Shown piece by piece: positions 25,231-33,889 of a DNA stretch of 64,000 bases. Every line of letters begins with the position of its first letter. Position 1 is the stretch's first letter. The notes under the pieces were generated by a model. That model was not told where the DNA came from and made no database searches. It worked only from the letters and a program-made list of their open reading frames with translations. The DNA is from Hamadaea flava (lineage in GTDB: Bacteria; Actinomycetota; Actinomycetes; Mycobacteriales; Micromonosporaceae), in NCBI RefSeq assembly GCF_024172085.1, contig NZ_JAMZDZ010000001.1, forward strand, positions 7,750,001 to 7,814,000, written 5' to 3'. The translations under genes and the position numbers were made by a program.

Positions 25231-26517
25231 TCAGAAGAACCGCAGATACAGGTAGGGGACGCAGACTGCGACGGTGATGACGGTGACGACAAGCCCATAC
25301 TTGGTGAACTGCCAGAACGAGATCGGTCTGCCCGAACGCTCGGCGATGCCGAGCATGACCACGTTGGCCGACGCGCCGATGGCTGTGGCGTTGCCGCCGA
25401 GGTCGGCGCCGAGCGCGAGGGCCCACCACAGCACGTTGCCGGTCGGGGTGCCGTCGGCGTGGACGAGGTCGGCGACGATCGGGCTCATCGTCGCCACGTA
25501 GGGAATGTTGTCCACGATGGCCGACAGGGCGGCCGACGCCCACAGCAGCAGCATGGTGGCACCCCACAGCCGACCGTCGACGGCATCGGTGGCGGCGCTG
25601 GAGACGGTGTCGATGACACCGGTGTTGACCAGTCCGCCGACCATGACGAACAGTCCGGCGAAGAAGATGAGCGTATGCCATTCGACGTCGCGGGCGATCT
25701 CGTCCGGATCGAGGCGGGACGCCGCGAGCAGGATCAACCCGCCGACGATCGCGACGACCGACGGCTCTAGGTGCAGCAGCGAGTGCAGTAGGAACGCGGC
25801 GAGCACGACCGCCAGGACGGCGAGACTGACCGCGAGCAGGCGTGGGTTGCGGATCGCCTCACGTTCACGCATCGCCAGCACCGACGCGACCCGGCTGCTG
25901 TCGGCAGAGAACGCGTGGCGGAACAGCCACCGGCACAGGGCCAGGAACACCACGAGCAGGATCAGCACGATCGGCGCCAGCACCGACAGGAAGTCGTTGA
26001 ACGTCAGCCCGGACCTGCTGGCGATGATGATGTTCGGCGGGTCGCCGATCAGCGTCGCGGTACCGCCGATGTTGGAGGCCATGACCTCGGCGATCAGGAA
26101 CGGCGCGGCAGGCAGGCCGAGCCGGTCGCACACGAAGAGGGTCACCGGCGCGACCAGCAGGACAGTGGTGACGTTGTCCAGCCCCGCCGACGCTATTCCG
26201 GTGATCAGCACGAGGATGACCATCACCGGGTACGGCCGGCCGCGGGCGCGTTTGACGGCCCAGATCGCCAAGTATTCGAACAAACCCGTGCGGCGCAGCA
26301 CCGCCACGATCAGCATCATGCCGATCAGCAGGAAGATCACGTTCCAGTCGATGCCGGAGTCCGAGGAGAAGAACGCCTCCTCGGCATTCGTGGCTCCGAT
26401 GAGCAGCATCGCGATCGCCCCGCCGAGCGCGGCAGCCACCCGGTGAACCCATTCGGTGGCGATCAGGACGTACGCGGCGGCGAAGACGGCCACCGCCAGC
26501 CAAGCCTGAACGCTCAC
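25231..26517 (-). CDS. Membrane ion transporter of the ArsB/NhaD (SLC13-like) superfamily
   Basis: This polytopic transporter has 428 residues and about 11-12 membrane helices. It resembles NhaD Na+/H+ antiporters and ArsB-type carriers. The family hallmark SNIGGTATLIGDPPNIIIAS is present, and a second half-repeat contains GADLGGNATAIGASANVV. The start is the GTG at 26517, which overlaps the stop of the CBS gene (GTGA), so the two are coupled. A much longer reading frame upstream belongs to other genes. The transported ion cannot be told from sequence. Confidence 0.85.
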   Translation of the reverse strand: MSVQAWLAVAVFAAAYVLIATEWVHRVAAALGGAIAMLLIGATNAEEAFFSSDSGIDWNVIFLLIGMMLIVAVLRRTGLFEYLAIWAVKRARGRPYPVMVILVLITGIASAGLDNVTTVLLVAPVTLFVCDRLGLPAAPFLIAEVMASNIGGTATLIGDPPNIIIASRSGLTFNDFLSVLAPIVLILLVVFLALCRWLFRHAFSADSSRVASVLAMREREAIRNPRLLAVSLAVLAVVLAAFLLHSLLHLEPSVVAIVGGLILLAASRLDPDEIARDVEWHTLIFFAGLFVMVGGLVNTGVIDTVSSAATDAVDGRLWGATMLLLWASAALSAIVDNIPYVATMSPIVADLVHADGTPTGNVLWWALALGADLGGNATAIGASANVVMLGIAERSGRPISFWQFTKYGLVVTVITVAVCVPYLYLRFF

Positions 26518-26966
26518 AGCGGCAGCACCCGGTCCAGCAGCGCGTGCAAGGTGACCGCACCGAGCAGCGCGCCGTCGACGACGGCCACCAGGGGGCTGCG
26601 CGTACGCGCCATCAGCGCTGCCATCTCCAACGCGGTCGCTTGCGGCGGTACGACGGGTAGTTCGTGGGGTTGTGGCGGCAGTAGCTCGCGCACAGTGCGG
26701 TCGCCGAGTTCGCGGACGAACACGTCGGCGGCGGCCTCGTCGACCAGATGGGTCAGCGCGGGATCGTCCTGGCAGTAGGACGGCACCGCCAGCCGCAGCA
26801 CCTGCGTACCGGGTAGGACGGCGAATGGTCGGCCCTGGTTGTCGACGACGATCAGACCGGGCAGATCGGCATCGGCCAGAATCCGGGCCGCCTCGATAGC
26901 GGGCGTCGTGAGAGTGACCGTCGGATAAGGCTGAACGAGGTCGGCGGCGCGCACGAGAGTCTCCAA
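26514..26966 (-). CDS. CBS-domain pair protein
   Basis: This small cytosolic protein (150 residues) consists of two CBS motifs (about 15-70 and 95-150). Such a pair usually binds adenosine nucleotides and gates a partner. It overlaps the transporter gene by four bases, so it probably senses energy state for that transporter. The start ATG at 26966 lies in the region open to both strands and is not backed by a strong ribosome site. Confidence 0.8.
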   Translation of the reverse strand: METLVRAADLVQPYPTVTLTTPAIEAARILADADLPGLIVVDNQGRPFAVLPGTQVLRLAVPSYCQDDPALTHLVDEAAADVFVRELGDRTVRELLPPQPHELPVVPPQATALEMAALMARTRSPLVAVVDGALLGAVTLHALLDRVLPL

Positions 26967-27131: not shown

Positions 27132-27557
27132 CTAACGCCTCATTCTCCGCATGCTCAGGTAGAGCGTGGCGGCGCCGAGTACGGCGGTCACGGCGCCGAC
27201 GGACACGTTGCTCGCGACTGCGGGCGTGGTGTTGACCGTGCCGCGGATTACCCACGGTGACACGAACGCCCAAATACCGAGAACGGGAATCACCCAGGTG
27301 ACGCCGTGCCAACGCTCAAACGACGCGGTCAAGCCGCAGGCGAGCGCGACGAGCACCGCGCCGGTGGCGATGTTGCTGATCGCGAGCGGTGCCAGCGATT
27401 GGAAGCCGACCACCCAGGGTGAAATCGCAAGATACAACCCCGATAGCAGAACGAGGCCGGTGACGACGTGAGCGGCCCAGGTCTCGTTGACCTGTTCGTA
27501 CTTCTGGCGCAACGCCACAATGTCGGGATGCCGCTCGATGCTGATCGTGGAAGCCAT
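27132..27557 (-). CDS. SPW-repeat membrane protein
   Basis: This four-helix membrane protein (141 residues) has two SPW repeats: YLAISPWVVGF followed by APLAISNIATGA, and IWAFVSPWVIRGT followed later by ASNVSVGAV. Start MASTISIERH at 27557 follows a GGGGGTGG stretch; an in-frame start at 27614 is less likely. Function of the family is unknown. SPW proteins are often found beside stress genes, as here. Confidence 0.8.
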   Translation of the reverse strand: MASTISIERHPDIVALRQKYEQVNETWAAHVVTGLVLLSGLYLAISPWVVGFQSLAPLAISNIATGAVLVALACGLTASFERWHGVTWVIPVLGIWAFVSPWVIRGTVNTTPAVASNVSVGAVTAVLGAATLYLSMRRMRR

Positions 27558-27810: not shown

Positions 27811-27824
27811 GGGGCCTTGGCCCC
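27811..27824. promoter_or_regulatory. DosR/DevR-like box
   Basis: GGGGCCTTGGCCCC is a perfect palindrome that fits the symmetric core GGGACYWWRGTCCC of DosR sites except at the position next to each GGG. It lies about 295 bases before the gene at 28120. Confidence 0.5.
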
Positions 27825-28016
27825 TACCTCGTGAGCGTCCCCGTGCTGCGCTCTAGACCGGGCATTCGTGCTGGAGGTGACCGATGATCACGCTTTCGAC
27901 GCAGCCACGCGTCAAACCGCCCGAAGATGACGGCTTGGTCGGCGATCGCGGCCAACACCCTCGGGCTCGTCCTGCTATCCGGGAGCTGGCTTGAAGGGCG
28001 TGTGCCCCGACGCCAC

Positions 28017-28030
28017 AGGACCTTGGCCTC
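28017..28030. promoter_or_regulatory. Weak DosR-like box
   Basis: AGGACCTTGGCCTC is a 14-mer with the same CCTTGG core, about 90 bases before the gene at 28120. Confidence 0.35.
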
Positions 28031-28119
28031 TGCGTGGGCGATCCCGCAATGCGATGTGATGACCGGTGACTATTCGGCGAGCCAACAGCTGACCAGCTCA
28101 ACGCGGTCTTGGGGGAGTC

Positions 28120-28566
28120 ATGGACACTCTGGTGATCGGGATCGGTGAGGAGCATCGGCACGACTACGCACTCGGTCTCGTGGCGGTACGTGAACTGCGG
28201 AGCCCGCACACGCAAGGGATCGAGTTCATGGAAAGCGATGGAGAGGCCACAACGCTGGTCGACGCCTGGGCAGATGTTCCCCTGGCGATCATCGTCACCG
28301 CCGGCGACATGGGCGACGCACCCGGCCGTATCCGGCGGATGGGGTTACACGACGCTGCCCTGACCAGCAATGACTCGCCAATGGGCGAGGCGATGGCGCT
28401 GGCCCGGTCGCTCGACCGGATGCCGCACAGGCTGCTGGTCTTCCGCGTCCAGATCCACGACGGATCGCCCGGTGACGGCCTCTCGTCGCCCGCGAGTCTG
28501 GCTGTCGGCGAGGTGATCAGCGAGATCGCGGACCTGCTCGTCACCCAGCGTTGGGCGCGTCAGTGA
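28120..28566 (+). CDS. Hydrogenase maturation protease-like protein (HyaD/HycI fold, degenerate)
   Basis: This cytosolic protein has 148 residues. The N-terminus VIGIGEEHRHDYALGLVAVREL aligns with the GNxxRxDDGxG opening of NiFe-hydrogenase maturation proteases. Glu and Asp metal ligands are partly kept, but the usual Asn is replaced by Glu. The C-terminal half carries an ALARSLDRMPHRLLVF segment typical of the fold. GGGGGAG precedes the ATG. No hydrogenase gene is in the window, so it may serve a hydrogenase elsewhere or have another role. Its position after DosR-like boxes fits low-oxygen expression. Confidence 0.65.
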   Translation: MDTLVIGIGEEHRHDYALGLVAVRELRSPHTQGIEFMESDGEATTLVDAWADVPLAIIVTAGDMGDAPGRIRRMGLHDAALTSNDSPMGEAMALARSLDRMPHRLLVFRVQIHDGSPGDGLSSPASLAVGEVISEIADLLVTQRWARQ

Positions 28567-28588
28567 GGGGTCCCGCCTACGCTGTGCC

Positions 28589-28602
28589 GGGCCGAAGGTC
28601 CC
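28589..28602. promoter_or_regulatory. DosR-like box before the DUF1876 operon
   Basis: GGGCCGAAGGTCCC lies 58 bases before the gene at 28660. Its reverse complement is identical to the core of the box at 31616-31635. Confidence 0.6.
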
Positions 28603-28659
28603 GTCTGTGGTAGGCGGTCGGCACTTGGCCAGCTGAAACCCCGCTCTCACGCTGGACAC

Positions 28660-28842
28660 ATGAGCGAGAAGGAAATCCACGACGCCAGCCGGGAGACGGT
28701 GCGAACGGTGGTCGATCGTCCGCAGGCCCAGGGCACGCACGAGGAAGAGCTACTGCGATACCTCGGCGGCGTCGCGTACCGCGAGCAACGTGAGGAGTCT
28801 CGCTCGAAGCGGGATGTGGCGACCGAGGAGAACAGGCGATGA
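28660..28842 (+). CDS. Small charged hypothetical protein
   Basis: This 60-residue, very polar protein (MSEKEIHDASRETVR) is rich in Glu and Arg, with no signal or membrane segment. I do not recognise it. The stop overlaps the start of the DUF1876 gene (ATGA), which supports real translation and coupling. A DosR-like box lies 58 bases upstream. Confidence 0.6.
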   Translation: MSEKEIHDASRETVRTVVDRPQAQGTHEEELLRYLGGVAYREQREESRSKRDVATEENRR

Positions 28843-29093
28843 CTGTCGCGCGTACCTGGACCGTCGAGGTCTTCATCGACGAACACGAAGATGAGCGGCG
28901 TACTCACGCGGAGGCGCGGCTGCACACGCGTGATCGCACCAACTTGAAGGGCGAAGGTGTCGCGACGCGGCGACCCAGCGACACCGAGGTCCCGGAGATC
29001 GGCGAGGAGCTCGCCGTCGCGCGGGCACTCGCCGACTTGTCGCATCAGTTGCTCACTGCGGCCGCGGGTGACATGGAGCAGGTCGCGGGCTGA
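28839..29093 (+). CDS. DUF1876 domain protein (Rv1738/Rv2632c family)
   Basis: This small dsRBD-like protein has 84 residues. It matches the family from the opening WTVEVFIDEHEDERRTHAEA through the GVATRRPSD loop to PEIGEELAVARALADLSHQL. In Mycobacterium tuberculosis, Rv1738 is among the most strongly DosR-induced genes (established knowledge). The palindrome at 28589-28602 suggests the same control here. Structural similarity to ribosome hibernation factors has been proposed for the family. Start overlaps the previous stop by four bases. Confidence 0.85.
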   Translation: MTVARTWTVEVFIDEHEDERRTHAEARLHTRDRTNLKGEGVATRRPSDTEVPEIGEELAVARALADLSHQLLTAAAGDMEQVAG

Positions 29094-29143
29094 TCACCCG
29101 TCGGGCAGCTCGGCTTTGCGAGCCGTCACGGAGGCGAAGCGAA

Positions 29144-29566
29144 ATGGCAGTCATGGGGACCCGGCATCCGGCCCGGCGGCGGTGGAAGCTGTGGAACGCC
29201 TTCACCTTGCGGGTGCTGCACACGCCACTGCTTGAGCGGCTCGCTGAGCAGCAGGTGTGCGAGCTTCGTTTCCGGGCGCGGCACAGCGGCGGCGAAGTGG
29301 TGCTGCCGGTCATGTACGCCCAGCATGACGACCTACTCGTCGTGCTGGTCGGTGGCCCTGAGGGCAAGCGGTGGTGGCGCAATTTCACGATGCCGTGGCG
29401 GGTCGAGGTCTTCCTTCGGGGGAGCGCGCGTTCCGGTGTCGGGCACCTCGTGCGGACGGGTTCGCCGCAGCGGCCGGAGGCGGCCCGCATCTACGGCGGC
29501 CGGTTTCCTGACCTGGCGGTCAACGACGATCCGATCGTGGTCATCGAGCTCGATCCGGTTCATTGA
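29144..29566 (+). CDS. DDN-like nitroreductase/quinone reductase family protein
   Basis: The product has 140 residues with the split-barrel fold of deazaflavin (F420)-dependent nitroreductases. The core strands read CELRFRARHSGG, VLPVMYAQHDD and LLVVLVGGPEGKRWWRNF, and the segment MPWRVEVFLRG follows. F420 or flavin use is inferred from the family. GGAGGCGAAGCG precedes the ATG. The gene sits in the stress island, where such proteins may protect against oxidised quinones. Confidence 0.75.
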   Translation: MAVMGTRHPARRRWKLWNAFTLRVLHTPLLERLAEQQVCELRFRARHSGGEVVLPVMYAQHDDLLVVLVGGPEGKRWWRNFTMPWRVEVFLRGSARSGVGHLVRTGSPQRPEAARIYGGRFPDLAVNDDPIVVIELDPVH

Positions 29567-29568
29567 CC

Positions 29569-29912
29569 ATGGCATCGACCAGTCATTGCCACACCAGGGG
29601 CGGCATATCCGAGGATCGGCTACTCGTGGTCGGATCGGGACCCACGGGTCTGGCGCTGCAAGCGACTTCGCTGGCCCGCAGGTGCAACTGATCGACCGGC
29701 GTGCTGCTGCGATCCGGCCGTCGCGCGCGATGCTTCTGAACGTACGCACCCTGGAGGTACTGCGCCCGCTTGGCGTGACGGACGCGCTGCTTGAACAAGC
29801 CATGACCGCGCCACGAATGCAGCTGCACGTGGGCAAGCACACGGTGCCGCTGACCCTTGCCGACTTCGCGGTTGACGACACCGCGTTTCCGCACCTGCAG
29901 CCGACCTTCTGA
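29569..29912 (+). pseudogene. Decayed FAD-dependent monooxygenase
   Basis: The sequence keeps the N-terminal part of a PheA/TfdB-type FAD monooxygenase. LLVVGSGPTGLALQATSLARR, the Rossmann GxGxxG segment, is in the frame of the ATG at 29569 and hits a stop. After a frameshift the homology continues as VQLIDRRAAAIRPSRAMLL, then RTLEVLRPLGVTDALL, and ends at a stop at 29912. Only about 110 of the usual 400 or more residues remain, so it cannot be functional. Confidence 0.8.
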
Positions 29913-30069
29913 CAGAACAGGTCCGGGGGCTGCGCACAGTGGGACCTCCGTGTCTGGGGGCGGATGCCTCACCAGGAGTGGACTGTGAATAGAGGGCTAT
30001 GAGCGTCTGCGAACAGCAGGCCGACCAGCCGGGACGACGCGCTTGCACGACGTGAAGGAGCGAGCTGCG

Positions 30070-30345
30070 ATGACTGTCTACGTGGACGTCCAGAACGAGC
30101 AACGCCAAGAATCCCGGGCCGATGAGCGCTCGCCGATCCGGCAGTCCGCTGCGAAAAGGGCCGCCCGCGCCTATTCCATGGCCGTCCGCGCGACCGAGCA
30201 GTTCATCGTCGGACTGCCGGGCACGCCCACCCACGCGGACCTCGACCGCTACGCCAGCCTGATCGACCGTGAGAACGCCGCCTGGCAGGTACGCCGGGAA
30301 GCGTTCGCCGCGCTCGCGGTGCACGACCAGGCGCAGATGAGTTGA
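30070..30345 (+). CDS. Small hypothetical protein of the stress island
   Basis: This 91-residue protein (MTVYVDVQNEQRQESRAD) has a helical, alanine/arginine-rich middle (SAAKRAARAYSMAVRATEQF). AAGGAG lies nine bases before the ATG at 30070, so I prefer it over an in-frame start at 30043. No family recognised. The gene ends five bases before the Rv2629-like gene and probably shares its mRNA. Confidence 0.6.
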   Translation: MTVYVDVQNEQRQESRADERSPIRQSAAKRAARAYSMAVRATEQFIVGLPGTPTHADLDRYASLIDRENAAWQVRREAFAALAVHDQAQMS

Positions 30346-30349
30346 CCTC

Positions 30350-31279
30350 GTGGCGGACTTCGATGCGGCGTTCAACCTGGTCAGCATCGATCTGGGAATG
30401 CTGCGGGAACTTGTGGAACCGGCCGACGCCACGTTTACCAGCGTCTACGTGGCTGACGCCGGAAGCGGCGGCCGGGCCGCGGCTGGCAGCCAGACTCACC
30501 GGCAGATGATCGCCTCCCGGCTGGCGAGCGCGGGCGCACCTGCGGCGGACATCGACGCCATCTGCAGGGCGTGGGCCGCCACCGGAGGTGGGTCAGACCG
30601 CTTCCTCGTCGCCTGCGACGGCGAAACCCGGCTGACTCAGTGTCTGCCGGGTGCGGTGACGACCGATGTCGCCCGCGTCGGCGCGCCGCCGCCGCTCGGG
30701 CCGCTGCTCGCTTGGTGGCAGCGGCATCCGGCGTACGTCGTGAGCCGCGACGTCGATGCCGCGAAAGTGCTTGCGCTGGCGCGGTCGAGCGGCGCTGATC
30801 TCGTGCTGGCGGCGCAGGACCACACCGACGACCTAGTGAACCAGGTTCGCGGGCTGGCTCCGTCGATCACCGTGCTAGAGATCGGCAGCGGCCCGGTGAC
30901 CGACGAGTCGATCCAGCAGGTGCTAGATGATTACGCCGCGGCCACCAGCGCTGAGCTGCGACTGGCGCTGGACGCCTTCGCCGTTCCACACAGTGTCGCC
31001 GTCCAGGGAGTCCACGCGACGCTCGCGGCACTGGCAGTCGGCCGAGTCGACACGGTGCTGGTGGTAGACGATCCTGACGATCGGCGAAGCGCGTGGTTCG
31101 GACCGGTCGAGCTGTGCGCCTCGCTGCCGGACCCCGTGCATCCGCAGCGAACCCCGCACGGTGGCCGCCTGGTCGACGTGGCGATCCGGGCAGCCCTGCT
31201 CACCGGGGCGCGGATACGAATTCTGAGCGGCGATCAAGCGCGCGGCTTGCGCGGAGGGCTCGGCGCCCTCATCCGCTGA
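30350..31279 (+). CDS. Rv2629/Balon-like eRF1-related protein (candidate ribosome hibernation factor)
   Basis: The product has 309 residues starting at GTG. Similarity to Rv2629 includes an early TFTSVYVADA segment, the RFLVACDGE strand and the middle VLDDYAAATSAELRLALD helix. It continues with ALAVGRVDTVLVVDD and a C-terminal VDVAIRAALLTGARIRIL. Rv2629-type proteins are baeRF/eRF1-domain relatives and include the hibernation factor Balon (established knowledge). No GGQ motif is seen, so peptide release is not expected. Rv2629 belongs to the DosR regulon, which matches the island. Function here is inferred. Confidence 0.75.
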   Translation: MADFDAAFNLVSIDLGMLRELVEPADATFTSVYVADAGSGGRAAAGSQTHRQMIASRLASAGAPAADIDAICRAWAATGGGSDRFLVACDGETRLTQCLPGAVTTDVARVGAPPPLGPLLAWWQRHPAYVVSRDVDAAKVLALARSSGADLVLAAQDHTDDLVNQVRGLAPSITVLEIGSGPVTDESIQQVLDDYAAATSAELRLALDAFAVPHSVAVQGVHATLAALAVGRVDTVLVVDDPDDRRSAWFGPVELCASLPDPVHPQRTPHGGRLVDVAIRAALLTGARIRILSGDQARGLRGGLGALIR

Positions 31280-31300
31280 TGGCAGTGGGGCGGGGTCCAT

Positions 31301-31490
31301 CTGTGCGTCACCGTCGAGGCCGACATCGCGGTGCAGGTGGACGTGGACCGGCTCGTCGCCCGGCGCTGCCGAATGGCCACGTCGACCCGCTCGCCAACGT
31401 CCGGCGGCATCATGGACCACTTTCTGCCGGTGAGCGAGTTCGACGACGACACGTGGCAGCGGGTGCTGGAGGTCGAATCCAGCACACCGT
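31301..31490 (+). pseudogene. Remnant of a short-chain dehydrogenase (SDR)
   Basis: Frames shift within this stretch, but the order matches an SDR. VEADIA and DVDRLVAR come first, then GHVDPLAN in another frame, and then GIMDHFLPVSEFDDDTWQRV in the original frame. Intact SDRs read ...VDRLVARAVERFGHVDVLVNNAGI...W.RVL.VN. No start or remaining domains are visible. Confidence 0.6.
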
Positions 31491-31531
31491 GTGGCGACGG
31501 TTCTGCGCAGTGGCGGGGGCCTGCAATGGGC

Positions 31532-31545
31532 CGTCCGAAGGTCCC
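31532..31545. promoter_or_regulatory. DosR-like box (imperfect)
   Basis: CGTCCGAAGGTCCC matches 12 of 14 positions of the box at 28589-28602 and is flanked by GAAC. Confidence 0.4.
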
Positions 31546-31615
31546 GAACCGGACACTCCGCCGAGTGCTGGCCCGGGTCGGTTGCTGGCCGGCGCCGTGG
31601 CCGTCACACAGTTCG

Positions 31616-31635
31616 TTCGGGACCTTCGGCCCGAA
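31616..31635. promoter_or_regulatory. DosR-like 20-bp palindrome before universal stress protein
   Basis: TTCGGGACCTTCGGCCCGAA closely fits the DosR consensus TTSGGGACTWWAGTCCCSAA. The outer arms extend to 10 bp (31612-31621 and 31630-31639). It lies about 190 bases before the universal stress protein start. Confidence 0.65.
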
Positions 31636-31825
31636 CGAAGGACGGGTTCCGCTGAACGCTGCCCTTGACCCGCTTCCAGCTCCGAAAATGGAAACGTGCG
31701 GCGGCCGGATCGCCGGCGGAGTCAGGAAGAACCGGTCATGCCGACCGGCAGGATCTGTGGCTCCGCTGTTCACACCCTGCCACGGCGGATTCTCCCGTGG
31801 AAGCACATCTGCCAAGGAGGCTGAC

Positions 31826-32293
31826 ATGAACTTCCGCATCGTCGTCGGCATCGACGGCTCCGAGGCCGCCCGGCGGGCGCTGCACTGGGCGGTGACCGAG
31901 GCCGAGGTCAGAGACGGCACCGTGCAGGCGATCGCCGTCTGGCACTGGGACGGCAGCGGCACCTTCGCGCCCATGGCCACGACGCCGGCCGAAGAACGCG
32001 ACCGCGCGCAAGCTGTGCTCACCCGCGAGGTCGAATCGATGGTGAAGGACTTCCCGACAGTCGCTGTCACGGCCGACATCATCGAGGGTCACCCCGCCCG
32101 CGAACTGACCAAGGCCGCCCGTGACGCCGACCTGCTCGCTCTGGGCAGCCACGGCCACAGCCACCTGTACCAGTCCGTGCTCGGCTCGATCAGCGACGAG
32201 TGCGTACGCACTGCGACCTGTCCGGTCGTGGTGCTGCCGGCGACCAGAGCGCAGGCGGTCGCGCCAGCCGAGGCGTTGGCAAACAGCCGTTGA
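31826..32293 (+). CDS. Universal stress protein (UspA family)
   Basis: This cytosolic ATP-binding stress protein has 155 residues, one USP domain. It opens RIVVGIDGSEAARRALHWA and has the nucleotide-loop ending LGSHGHSHLYQSVLGSISDE, close to the GxxGxxxxxxxxGS motif. AAGGAGG precedes ATG 31826. The reading frame is open to 31331, but that part is decayed sequence. A DosR-like palindrome upstream suggests induction under low oxygen or nitric oxide. Confidence 0.92.
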   Translation: MNFRIVVGIDGSEAARRALHWAVTEAEVRDGTVQAIAVWHWDGSGTFAPMATTPAEERDRAQAVLTREVESMVKDFPTVAVTADIIEGHPARELTKAARDADLLALGSHGHSHLYQSVLGSISDECVRTATCPVVVLPATRAQAVAPAEALANSR

Positions 32294-32807: not shown

Positions 32808-32832
32808 ATCGGTTCTCCTTCCAATTGTGTAC

Positions 32833-32863
32833 GGCCCGGCGACGCGGGGAGCGTCACCGGGCC
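32833..32863 (-). terminator. Hairpin terminator after membrane protein gene
   Basis: Arms 32833-32845 and 32851-32863 pair at 12 of 13 positions. The hairpin lies just past the stop of the leftward membrane protein gene and before the flavodoxin gene. Confidence 0.5.
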
Positions 32864-32888
32864 GGACCCGGGGGAGATCACTTCACGA

Positions 32889-33539
32889 TCACTTGGCCGT
32901 GGCCTTGGCCTGTTCGGTTTCGACGAGGGCGAAGCCGGTCGATTTCGGGGTGGTGAAGGCGTGGGCGAGTCCGGCCAGCGCCAGCAGGAGCATCAGGGCG
33001 GCGGCGCCGTAGGCGACGAGTGCGGCCTGACCGGCCTTGGTGCCGAATTCGCTGAAGCCGTAGCTGGTCAGCAGCAGGCCGCGCAGGGTTTCGCCTTTGA
33101 AGACGGTCTCCCGTTGAGCGGTGACGTCGGCCAGTTGCTTGGTCAGGTCGTCGACCTTGGCCTGGTCGACCGGGGTGGCCTTCTGTGCCTCGGTCAGCTG
33201 GTTCTTCAGCTGCGTCTGGGGGGTGCCGAGGTCGGCGTAGGTCTGGCCGCCGGCGATCGACTTCAGGTGCAGTCCGATGAATTCGTTGGCGTAGCACTCG
33301 GCTTGCTTGCCGGTGGTCATCGGCTGGCCGGCGTACTCGACGAGGCAGGCGGCCTTCTTCTCTTCGTCGGTGAGGGTGTCGGCGGTCTTGAAGGTGATGT
33401 GCTGCGCGGCCAGCTGGTCGTGCACGTAGGTGTTGGCGAAGCTGGCGTTGGCGCCCAGCACGATGCCGGCGACCAGCAGGAGCGCGGCGATGGCGAGCCC
33501 GCCGATGCTGAACAGGAGGTCGAGGGTCCGGCGTTTCAT
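32889..33539 (-). CDS. Hypothetical two-helix membrane protein
   Basis: This 216-residue protein has a membrane helix near each end (about 8-30 and 170-192). The large external loop contains Cys residues (AACLVEY, AECYANEF) and a coiled-coil-like Gln/Leu/Lys stretch (QLKNQLTEAQKATPVDQAK). I recognise no named family. GGAGCAC precedes the ATG. A weak DosR-like site (33638-33651) lies about 100 bases upstream. Confidence 0.65.
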   Translation of the reverse strand: MKRRTLDLLFSIGGLAIAALLLVAGIVLGANASFANTYVHDQLAAQHITFKTADTLTDEEKKAACLVEYAGQPMTTGKQAECYANEFIGLHLKSIAGGQTYADLGTPQTQLKNQLTEAQKATPVDQAKVDDLTKQLADVTAQRETVFKGETLRGLLLTSYGFSEFGTKAGQAALVAYGAAALMLLLALAGLAHAFTTPKSTGFALVETEQAKATAK

Positions 33540-33637
33540 GGTGTGCTCCTTCAGGAGGGGGTGAGAAACACTTCGTTGCCCTCAGAGCATCGGTTCTGGA
33601 CGGTCGTGGCAGCAGAGACACAGTTCCCGGATCGGGT

Positions 33638-33651
33638 GGGACCAAAGACTC
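33638..33651. promoter_or_regulatory. Weak DosR-like box
   Basis: GGGACCAAAGACTC matches the DosR core at about 11 of 14 positions, upstream of the leftward membrane protein gene. Confidence 0.3.
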
Positions 33652-33697
33652 CGATCGGAGGGACTGTCAGCCCGGCGTCTGGTGTGGATAAGACAAG

Positions 33698-33729
33698 GGC
33701 GGTGCGGACCGTCGAAGGTCCACACCGCC
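33698..33729. terminator. Hairpin in intergenic region
   Basis: Arms 33698-33710 and 33717-33729 pair with one mismatch around a GTCGAA loop. No flanking intact gene ends here, so its role is unclear. Confidence 0.35.
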
Positions 33730-33889
33730 GTGTCCGGCCCACCGGCTCGCCCGCGTTCCCAAGTGGACGTCCGCTCAGGCCCTCCTCGCAGAAAGCCAGG
33801 TGTCCGAACTGGAACATCACATCGCACTGGTCCGGGCCACGGCAGAGGACAAGGTCCCGACCGGCTCCGCCTCACGGCCTGTGCCGCGG

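Follow-up and report, generated by a model that had tools for sequence, protein, structure and literature searches.

Palindromic boxes before dormancy-type genes in an actinomycete: a likely satellite island of a DosR/OsdR-type regulon

The window, by which we mean the whole stretch of 64,000 nucleotides analysed here, carries the genes and palindromic sites listed below. Sites were scored with a matrix built from the dosR-upstream sites of relatives. It replaced a matrix of 25 published OsdR sites with a GC-rich centre, which scored the reversed control (11.5) above the best site of the window (10.9) and could not tell signal from control. The dosRS island is a second region of the same contig, described further on.

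27811..27824, weak palindrome GGGGCCTTGGCCCC, probably no DosR box (matrix score 7.3)
28120..28566, forward strand, hydrogenase maturation protease relative (TIGR00072, E 4.4e-15, above cut-off)
28589..28602, DosR-type box GGGCCGAAGGTCCC (matrix score 16.5, maximum 18.3)
28660..28842, forward strand, small ORF of 60 aa, 4-nt overlap with the DUF1876 start
28839..29093, forward strand, DUF1876 / Rv2632c-like protein (PF08962, E 1.9e-30)
29144..29566, forward strand, possible deazaflavin-dependent nitroreductase-like protein, weak (TIGR00026, E 0.0014; PF04075, E 0.0062)
30070..30345, forward strand, 91-aa protein directly before the Rv2629-like gene
30350..31279, forward strand, divergent relative of the Rv2629 ribosome-hibernation-factor family (NF052289, E 7.7e-18)
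31532..31545, weak half-conserved second site CGTCCGAAGGTCCC (score 6.1; two mismatches to the 14-mer)
31616..31635, DosR-type box TTCGGGACCTTCGGCCCGAA (matrix score 16.5; 17/20 consensus positions)
31826..32293, forward strand, universal stress protein, USP (PF00582, E 1.4e-28)
32889..33539, reverse strand, membrane protein, duplicated almost unchanged in the dosRS island
33638..33673, two weak box-like sites, at 33638 and 33660 (scores 10.8 and 8.7)

Gene kinds of the DosR type in mycobacteria include DUF1876 (Rv2632c), Rv2629, USP, nitroreductases, Tgs1 and Hrp1. Profile matches bear out the DUF1876, USP and hydrogenase-protease-like identities given in the original prediction, and assign no family to the small ORF at 28660-28842 or to the 91-aa protein. 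The nitroreductase that it named survives as a sub-threshold resemblance: both matches of the gene at 29144-29566 lie under the cut-off, and its 67% homologue in a congener is preceded, at 64 nt, by a box. Kinship to Rv2629 is likewise upheld in part. The NCBIfam Rv2629 hibernation-factor model picks up the protein at 30350-31279, but at 64.8 bits, far under the equivalog cut-off of 320; against solved chains it has no significant match (best E 0.063). We class it as a divergent relative and do not file it as a member of Rv2629/Balon. It resembles them in its setting among hypoxia-type genes, which is where one Balon copy sits in mycobacteria (PMC10901736). No box stands directly upstream of the pair formed by this gene and the 91-aa gene, where the best matrix score is 5.1. 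The membrane-protein gene shares 99.8% DNA identity with its dosRS-island copy over the gene, and the duplicated block (32831-33879) 97.3%; the site pair at 33638 and 33660 precedes this gene and recurs in the dosRS island.

The sequence contains palindromes at 27811-27824, 28589-28602 and 31616-31635, as originally reported, and the last two have one 14-mer in common in opposite orientation, the core GGGACCTTCGGCCC of the 31616-31635 box being the reverse complement of GGGCCGAAGGTCCC. A match to the DosR core had been claimed for all three; it holds for these two, which give the two top matrix scores in the window. The palindrome at 27811-27824 is genuine but makes a poor DosR box (7.3 against 16.5) and is probably none. 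The box at 28589-28602 lies 57 nt upstream of the start codon (ATG) of the small ORF heading the DUF1876 pair, and the 14-mer core at 31616-31635 lies 193 nt upstream of the universal stress gene, with the weak site at 31532-31545 upstream of that box. Against the published Mycobacterium tuberculosis DosR consensus, TTSGGGACTWWAGTCCCSAA (PMC2275270), the 31616-31635 box matches 17/20 positions, the top of the window; the maximum in 30 simulated windows was 16, reached once. The 28589 box matches 13/20, a level of at least 13 being found at 43 places in the window, so that its case is made by the 14-mer core and the context. A spacing of 55-59 nt between all three boxes and an ATG was considered and given little weight, since 5% of random points also have an ATG 54-58 nt further on and nothing supports the ATGs at 27884 and 31688 as gene starts.

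Palindromes that arose by chance in GC-rich sequence next to stress genes would account for the weak 27811 site, and the pattern counts of this genome are not above control. As an explanation of the boxes, chance is nevertheless very unlikely. Of 200 simulated windows, 11 contained one site with the observed matrix score and none contained two, and 100 order-2 simulations of the window yielded no exact copy of the 14-mer. The whole genome holds three exact copies, a pair 3 kb apart in the window and one in the dosRS island; five of the 13 loci from that search were read.

The dosRS island lies about 650 kb from the window on the same 8.86-Mb contig. The DosR/S homologues that the original prediction called for are both found here (coordinates in locus L015):

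L015:12548-13177 (8437547-8438176), DevR/DosR-like NarL/FixJ response regulator (DevR 3c3w, E 1.3e-69)
L015:2550-4139, DosS/DosT-type sensor kinase with GAF, HisKA_3 and HATPase_c domains

A DosR-type regulator is present in the genome. Among solved structures it is closest to DevR (3c3w), followed by VraR (E 1.3e-45), and it is the sole genome match at E<=1e-50. Aligned to DevR positions 54, 179, 182 and 183 are D, K, K and N; the D aligned to position 54 is presumably the phospho-acceptor. For the kinase GAF domain the top matches are 2vzw (E 3.5e-52) and, at E of about 1e-48 to 1e-49, DevS chains. M. tuberculosis DosR(DevR) and DosS/DosT supply the best solved relatives of the regulator and of the GAF domain. 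The domain retains His112 (HPPM), the presumed haem ligand, and Tyr134 (LYL). The two genes are on opposite strands, with about 8 kb between them. The kinase analysis covered the island kinase among the 50 HisKA_3 matches of the genome.

A mycobacterial-type core, GGGACTAAAGTCCC, lies 46 nt upstream of dosR. Further boxes in the island precede nitroreductase/USP, cation-ATPase, WS/DGAT-CBS and acetyltransferase/CoA-ligase genes, at 56-64 nt from the ATPase leader gene, the GNAT/CoA-ligase gene and the WS/DGAT gene. The strict pattern GGGACYWWNGKCCC occurs at eight places in the genome: two in the window, five in the dosRS island and the eighth inside a called gene. Counted by strand rows in the own genome, it shows no excess (10 against 7 in control), nor does GGGNCNWWNGNCCC (35 against 48, with 16 of its 35 places read), and GGGMCSNNSGKCCC is depleted (42 against 127). 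Because these counts do not rise above control, the evidence within this genome is the location of the boxes and not their number.

Other genomes associate the box with the regulator. The full core lies within 260 nt of dosR at 36/80 loci of other genomes, against 60/1600 random pieces, and the 14-mer of the window itself precedes dosR at 6/80. Two congeners carry the same core before dosR, a third GGGACCAAGGTCCC. Genomes with DosR (46) contain 276 pattern rows against 183 in control, those without it (15) 21 against 57; the excess tracks DosR presence across the 61 genomes (one-sided p 2.7e-4). Both observations bear on the rival reading, in which the boxes are operators of a different NarL/FixJ-type regulator that has a similar site. 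The sites of related regulators can resemble one another, and the 50 HisKA_3 matches imply many two-component pairs in this genome; yet the same 14-mer or core precedes dosR here and in relatives, and with the tracking of DosR presence this makes a regulator other than the DosR homologue an unlikely owner of the sites.

The dosR boxes of relatives keep their arms and vary in the centre (AAA, TTG, AAG, TTC). This conservation of arms without the loop, along with the placement of boxes before genes, some of them between divergent genes, makes RNA hairpins, whether terminators or leader structures aided by a UUCG loop, a very unlikely alternative to operators. The core GGGACCTTCGGCCC is able to fold with a UUCG loop, and RNA of 31605-31650 folds a little better than its shuffled versions (z -1.97, 10/200 as good), as does that of the dosR box (z -2.16), but 28575-28620 (z -0.73) and the box at 8423226 (z -0.66) do not stand out, and no T-run is seen by eye after the boxes.

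Conservation before the window genes seems at most moderate for the USP box and appears to be lacking for the DUF1876 box. Upstream of USP relatives, sites scoring at least 11 are found in 7/29 against 2/29 downstream (p 0.07), and sites of at least 9 in 11/29 against 3/29 (p 0.015); the closest orthologue (81%) has a degraded site scoring 9.7. The corresponding figures for DUF1876 relatives are 1/22 on either side and 6/22 upstream against 2/22 downstream, and since relatives hardly show a box, the regulon membership of DUF1876 is argued solely from the box in its own genome. Within the relatives' loci, where 102/588 other genes have a box as background, boxed homologues of window genes comprise USP (8/18), flavodoxin (3/4), DUF1876 (2/10), the membrane gene (2/8) and the 29144-type gene (1/2). 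Homologues of the CBS, protease and 91-aa genes had none (0/1 each), and SPW, the small ORF and the Rv2629-like gene found no homologues in these loci. For dosR and the divergent nitroreductase this count is in part circular, since their promoters were used to train the matrix. By eye, some boxed genes of relatives resemble CydA oxidase, pyruvate phosphate dikinase and a glycyl-radical or formate-acetyltransferase enzyme.

The system resembles two that are described. The sites listed for OsdK/OsdR of Streptomyces coelicolor include the GGGACCTTCGGCCC core before SCO0216, SCO0167 and SCO5979, identical to the 14-mer core of the window, and the same source pairs a DosR-type regulator with a DevS-like kinase, places USP and nitroreductase genes among predicted targets and gives the regulator gene its own box, all as here (PMC5069765). 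In contrast to the osdR-osdK operon as described, the two genes are separated here, the island carries WS/DGAT, CBS, cation-ATPase and GNAT/CoA-ligase genes, and the dosR box has an AT-rich, mycobacterial centre. With M. tuberculosis DosR the system shares similar gene kinds in another order, and the window boxes differ from its site in having C/G beside the centre.

The regulator, the DosS-type kinase, the core before dosR and the boxes before dormancy-type genes support the predicted DosR-like regulon. The boxes at 28589 and 31616 are probably operators of the DosR/OsdR-type regulator 650 kb away, acting with its putative haem-GAF kinase of the DosS/DosT type, and that regulon most likely has the window as a satellite island. 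From the two boxes and the regulator elsewhere on the chromosome, this actinomycete seems to possess a dormancy switch of a known kind, as in mycobacteria and Streptomyces. Boxes, regulator, kinase, key residues, the box before dosR and co-occurrence across genomes are read from sequence; from these we infer the nature of the signal, the phosphotransfer and the binding, as well as the direction of control and the limits of the operons. A drop in oxygen would lead the kinase to phosphorylate DosR; a DosR dimer would then occupy the boxes and activate both the DUF1876 operon and the universal stress gene. Read-through might also reach the nitroreductase-like and Rv2629-like genes, and the boxed genes of the dosRS island would be switched on together with those of the window.

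These observations extend the DosR-type dormancy regulon beyond mycobacteria and Streptomyces to another large actinomycete group, with regulator, sensor and sites all identified within one genome and a site matrix usable for the group. They point to organisms not known as pathogens for the study of oxygen-controlled dormancy, including a hibernation-factor relative. Much more tentatively, the DosR two-island regulon of this lineage (provisionally Micromonosporaceae) might link oxygen sensing to an Rv2629/Balon-like protein, with islands that trade boxed promoters, whether through recent duplication or through gene conversion. If so, the oxygen-to-hibernation wiring would predate the split between mycobacteria and filamentous actinomycetes and would not be a pathogen trait.

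The palindromes at 28589-28602 and 31616-31635 are read here as predicted sites of a DosR/OsdR-type regulator encoded elsewhere on the same contig. Palindromes are indeed present at all three places where the original prediction had put DosR-like boxes, and these two share one 14-mer, in opposite orientation, of which the genome holds three exact copies. None of 200 simulated windows contained two sites at the observed score, and 11 contained one. The 31616 box agrees with the mycobacterial consensus, as stated in PMC2275270, at 17 of 20 positions; the 28589 box agrees at 13 of 20, an ordinary value by that measure, so that the case for it lies in its 14-mer core. A matrix built from 24 distinct sites upstream of dosR in relatives scores each of the two at 16.5, against 7.3 for the palindrome at 27811-27824, whose role as a DosR box is accordingly unproven. 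An ATG at 27884, 59 nt past this weak box, follows a good Shine-Dalgarno-like GGAGGTG and opens a short ORF of only about 36 codons.

The DosR homologue presupposed by the original prediction is encoded on the same 8.86-Mb contig as the window (7750001-7814000), in an island (stretch L015, about 650 kb away) that adjoins the third copy of the 14-mer; this copy, at 8423226, is flanked by a WS/DGAT gene on one side and a CBS-domain gene on the other.

Genes of the dosRS island
nitroreductase-family genes, two
GAF kinase
cation-ATPase-like genes, two (one checked)
cNMP-binding protein
double-USP protein
DosR-like regulator
GNAT/acyl-CoA-ligase gene

The regulator is the sole match at E<=1e-50 in its genome; its best solved relative is DevR, with VraR far behind, and the named organisms with the best matches are Catellatospora (83%), Dactylosporangium, Actinoplanes and Micromonospora, which points to Micromonosporaceae as the family of the organism. 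The kinase GAF domain matches DevS chains and 2vzw, which we take to be DosT, and keeps an HPPM histidine and an LYL tyrosine, by residue counting presumably the haem ligand and the distal tyrosine.

The regulator's own gene is preceded by a box scoring 18.0. In other genomes, a full core lies within 260 nt upstream of dosR at 36 of 80 loci, compared with 60 of 1600 pieces drawn at random from those loci, and the exact 14-mer of the window recurs at six of the 80, including those of Actinoplanes italicus, Catenuloplanes japonicus and Winogradskya humida. The window and 220,513 bases of other stretches of its genome hold 30 sites above 9.5, against 15 for the reversed control, a count biased upwards by the choice of many stretches for holding a palindrome. 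Fourteen stretches of relatives, selected for where their USP or DUF1876 genes lie, hold 24 sites of at least 12.5 (at least two of them, in L172 and L177, already known when the stretches were chosen), against 3 reversed. Gene names in these stretches, such as CydA and pyruvate phosphate dikinase, were assigned by eye; at L172:10532 (genome G004) the exact 14-mer stands between two divergent genes, one resembling CydA, a cytochrome bd subunit, and the other a USP akin to that of the window. A further strong box of the own genome, GGGTCTTAAGTCCC at L022:8269 (1438268), scores 16.4; it is located 3' of a double-USP gene, with a small membrane-protein gene following 134 nt later.

Among the dormancy-type genes originally named, DUF1876 (28839) and USP (31826) are certain, and the 28120 gene is a relative of hydrogenase maturation protease. 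The 30350 gene is related to the Rv2629 hibernation factors but divergent from them, and its product has matches at E<=0.001 in just 12 of 61 genomes, those outside its own being of low identity; the likeness of the 29144 gene to deazaflavin nitroreductases is weak. Between the 29144 gene and the pair at 30070-31279, positions 29600-29912 resemble, by eye, part of a broken FAD-dependent monooxygenase gene. The matrix scan found no box directly upstream of the Rv2629-like pair; the G020 relative of the 30350 gene, though, carries one scoring 15.9, 185 nt upstream (L202). Two further genes lie just upstream of the boxed genes, and the gaps before them hold no site above 7.3 by the matrix.

Genes just upstream of the boxed genes
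26514-26954, strand opposite to the boxed genes, CBS-domain protein
27132-27557, strand opposite to the boxed genes, SPW-repeat membrane protein

A 1.05-kb block at 32831-33879, comprising a membrane-protein gene and its promoter, which carries two weak boxes, has a second copy in the dosRS island (L015:592-1641) with 97.3% identity. The roughly 250 nt of identical upstream sequence suggest that one island recently passed the block to the other by duplication or gene conversion.

On the side against the regulatory reading, direct footprints among relatives of the window genes are mixed, box-like sites being commoner before than after USP relatives and hardly so for DUF1876; the missing box at the Rv2629-like pair and the narrow spread of the Rv2629-like protein stand on that side too. 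Box-like sites upstream and downstream of 29 USP relatives number 11 vs 3 at >=9 (p 0.015), 7 vs 2 at >=11 (p 0.07) and 6 vs 1 at >=13 (p 0.05); for 22 DUF1876 relatives they number 6 vs 2 at >=9 (p 0.12) and 1 vs 1 at >=11. In the nearest orthologue of the USP gene (81%) the site is degraded, scoring 9.7; in the next (80%) the one strong box heads an apparent four-gene operon.

A DosR-type regulon outside mycobacteria is already known for OsdR of S. coelicolor, whose predicted sites (PMC5069765) include the same core as the window boxes. Titles and abstracts among the matches listed for Micromonospora, Actinoplanes, Frankia, Dactylosporangium and Catellatospora describe none in Micromonosporaceae, an absence left unproven by a search that most subscription papers fall outside.

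The regulator occurs at E<=1e-50 in 46 of 61 genomes, the own genome counted. Rows of GGGACYWWNGKCCC number 276 against 183 for the reversed pattern in genomes with it, and 21 against 57 in those without (one-sided Mann-Whitney on per-genome differences, p 2.7e-4). In the own genome, the window and the dosRS island together account for seven of the eight strict-pattern places, and the remaining one falls inside a called gene. Since the genomes compared share ancestry and vary in size and composition, this tracking of the regulator by the pattern excess is support, rather than proof, for a link to DosR.
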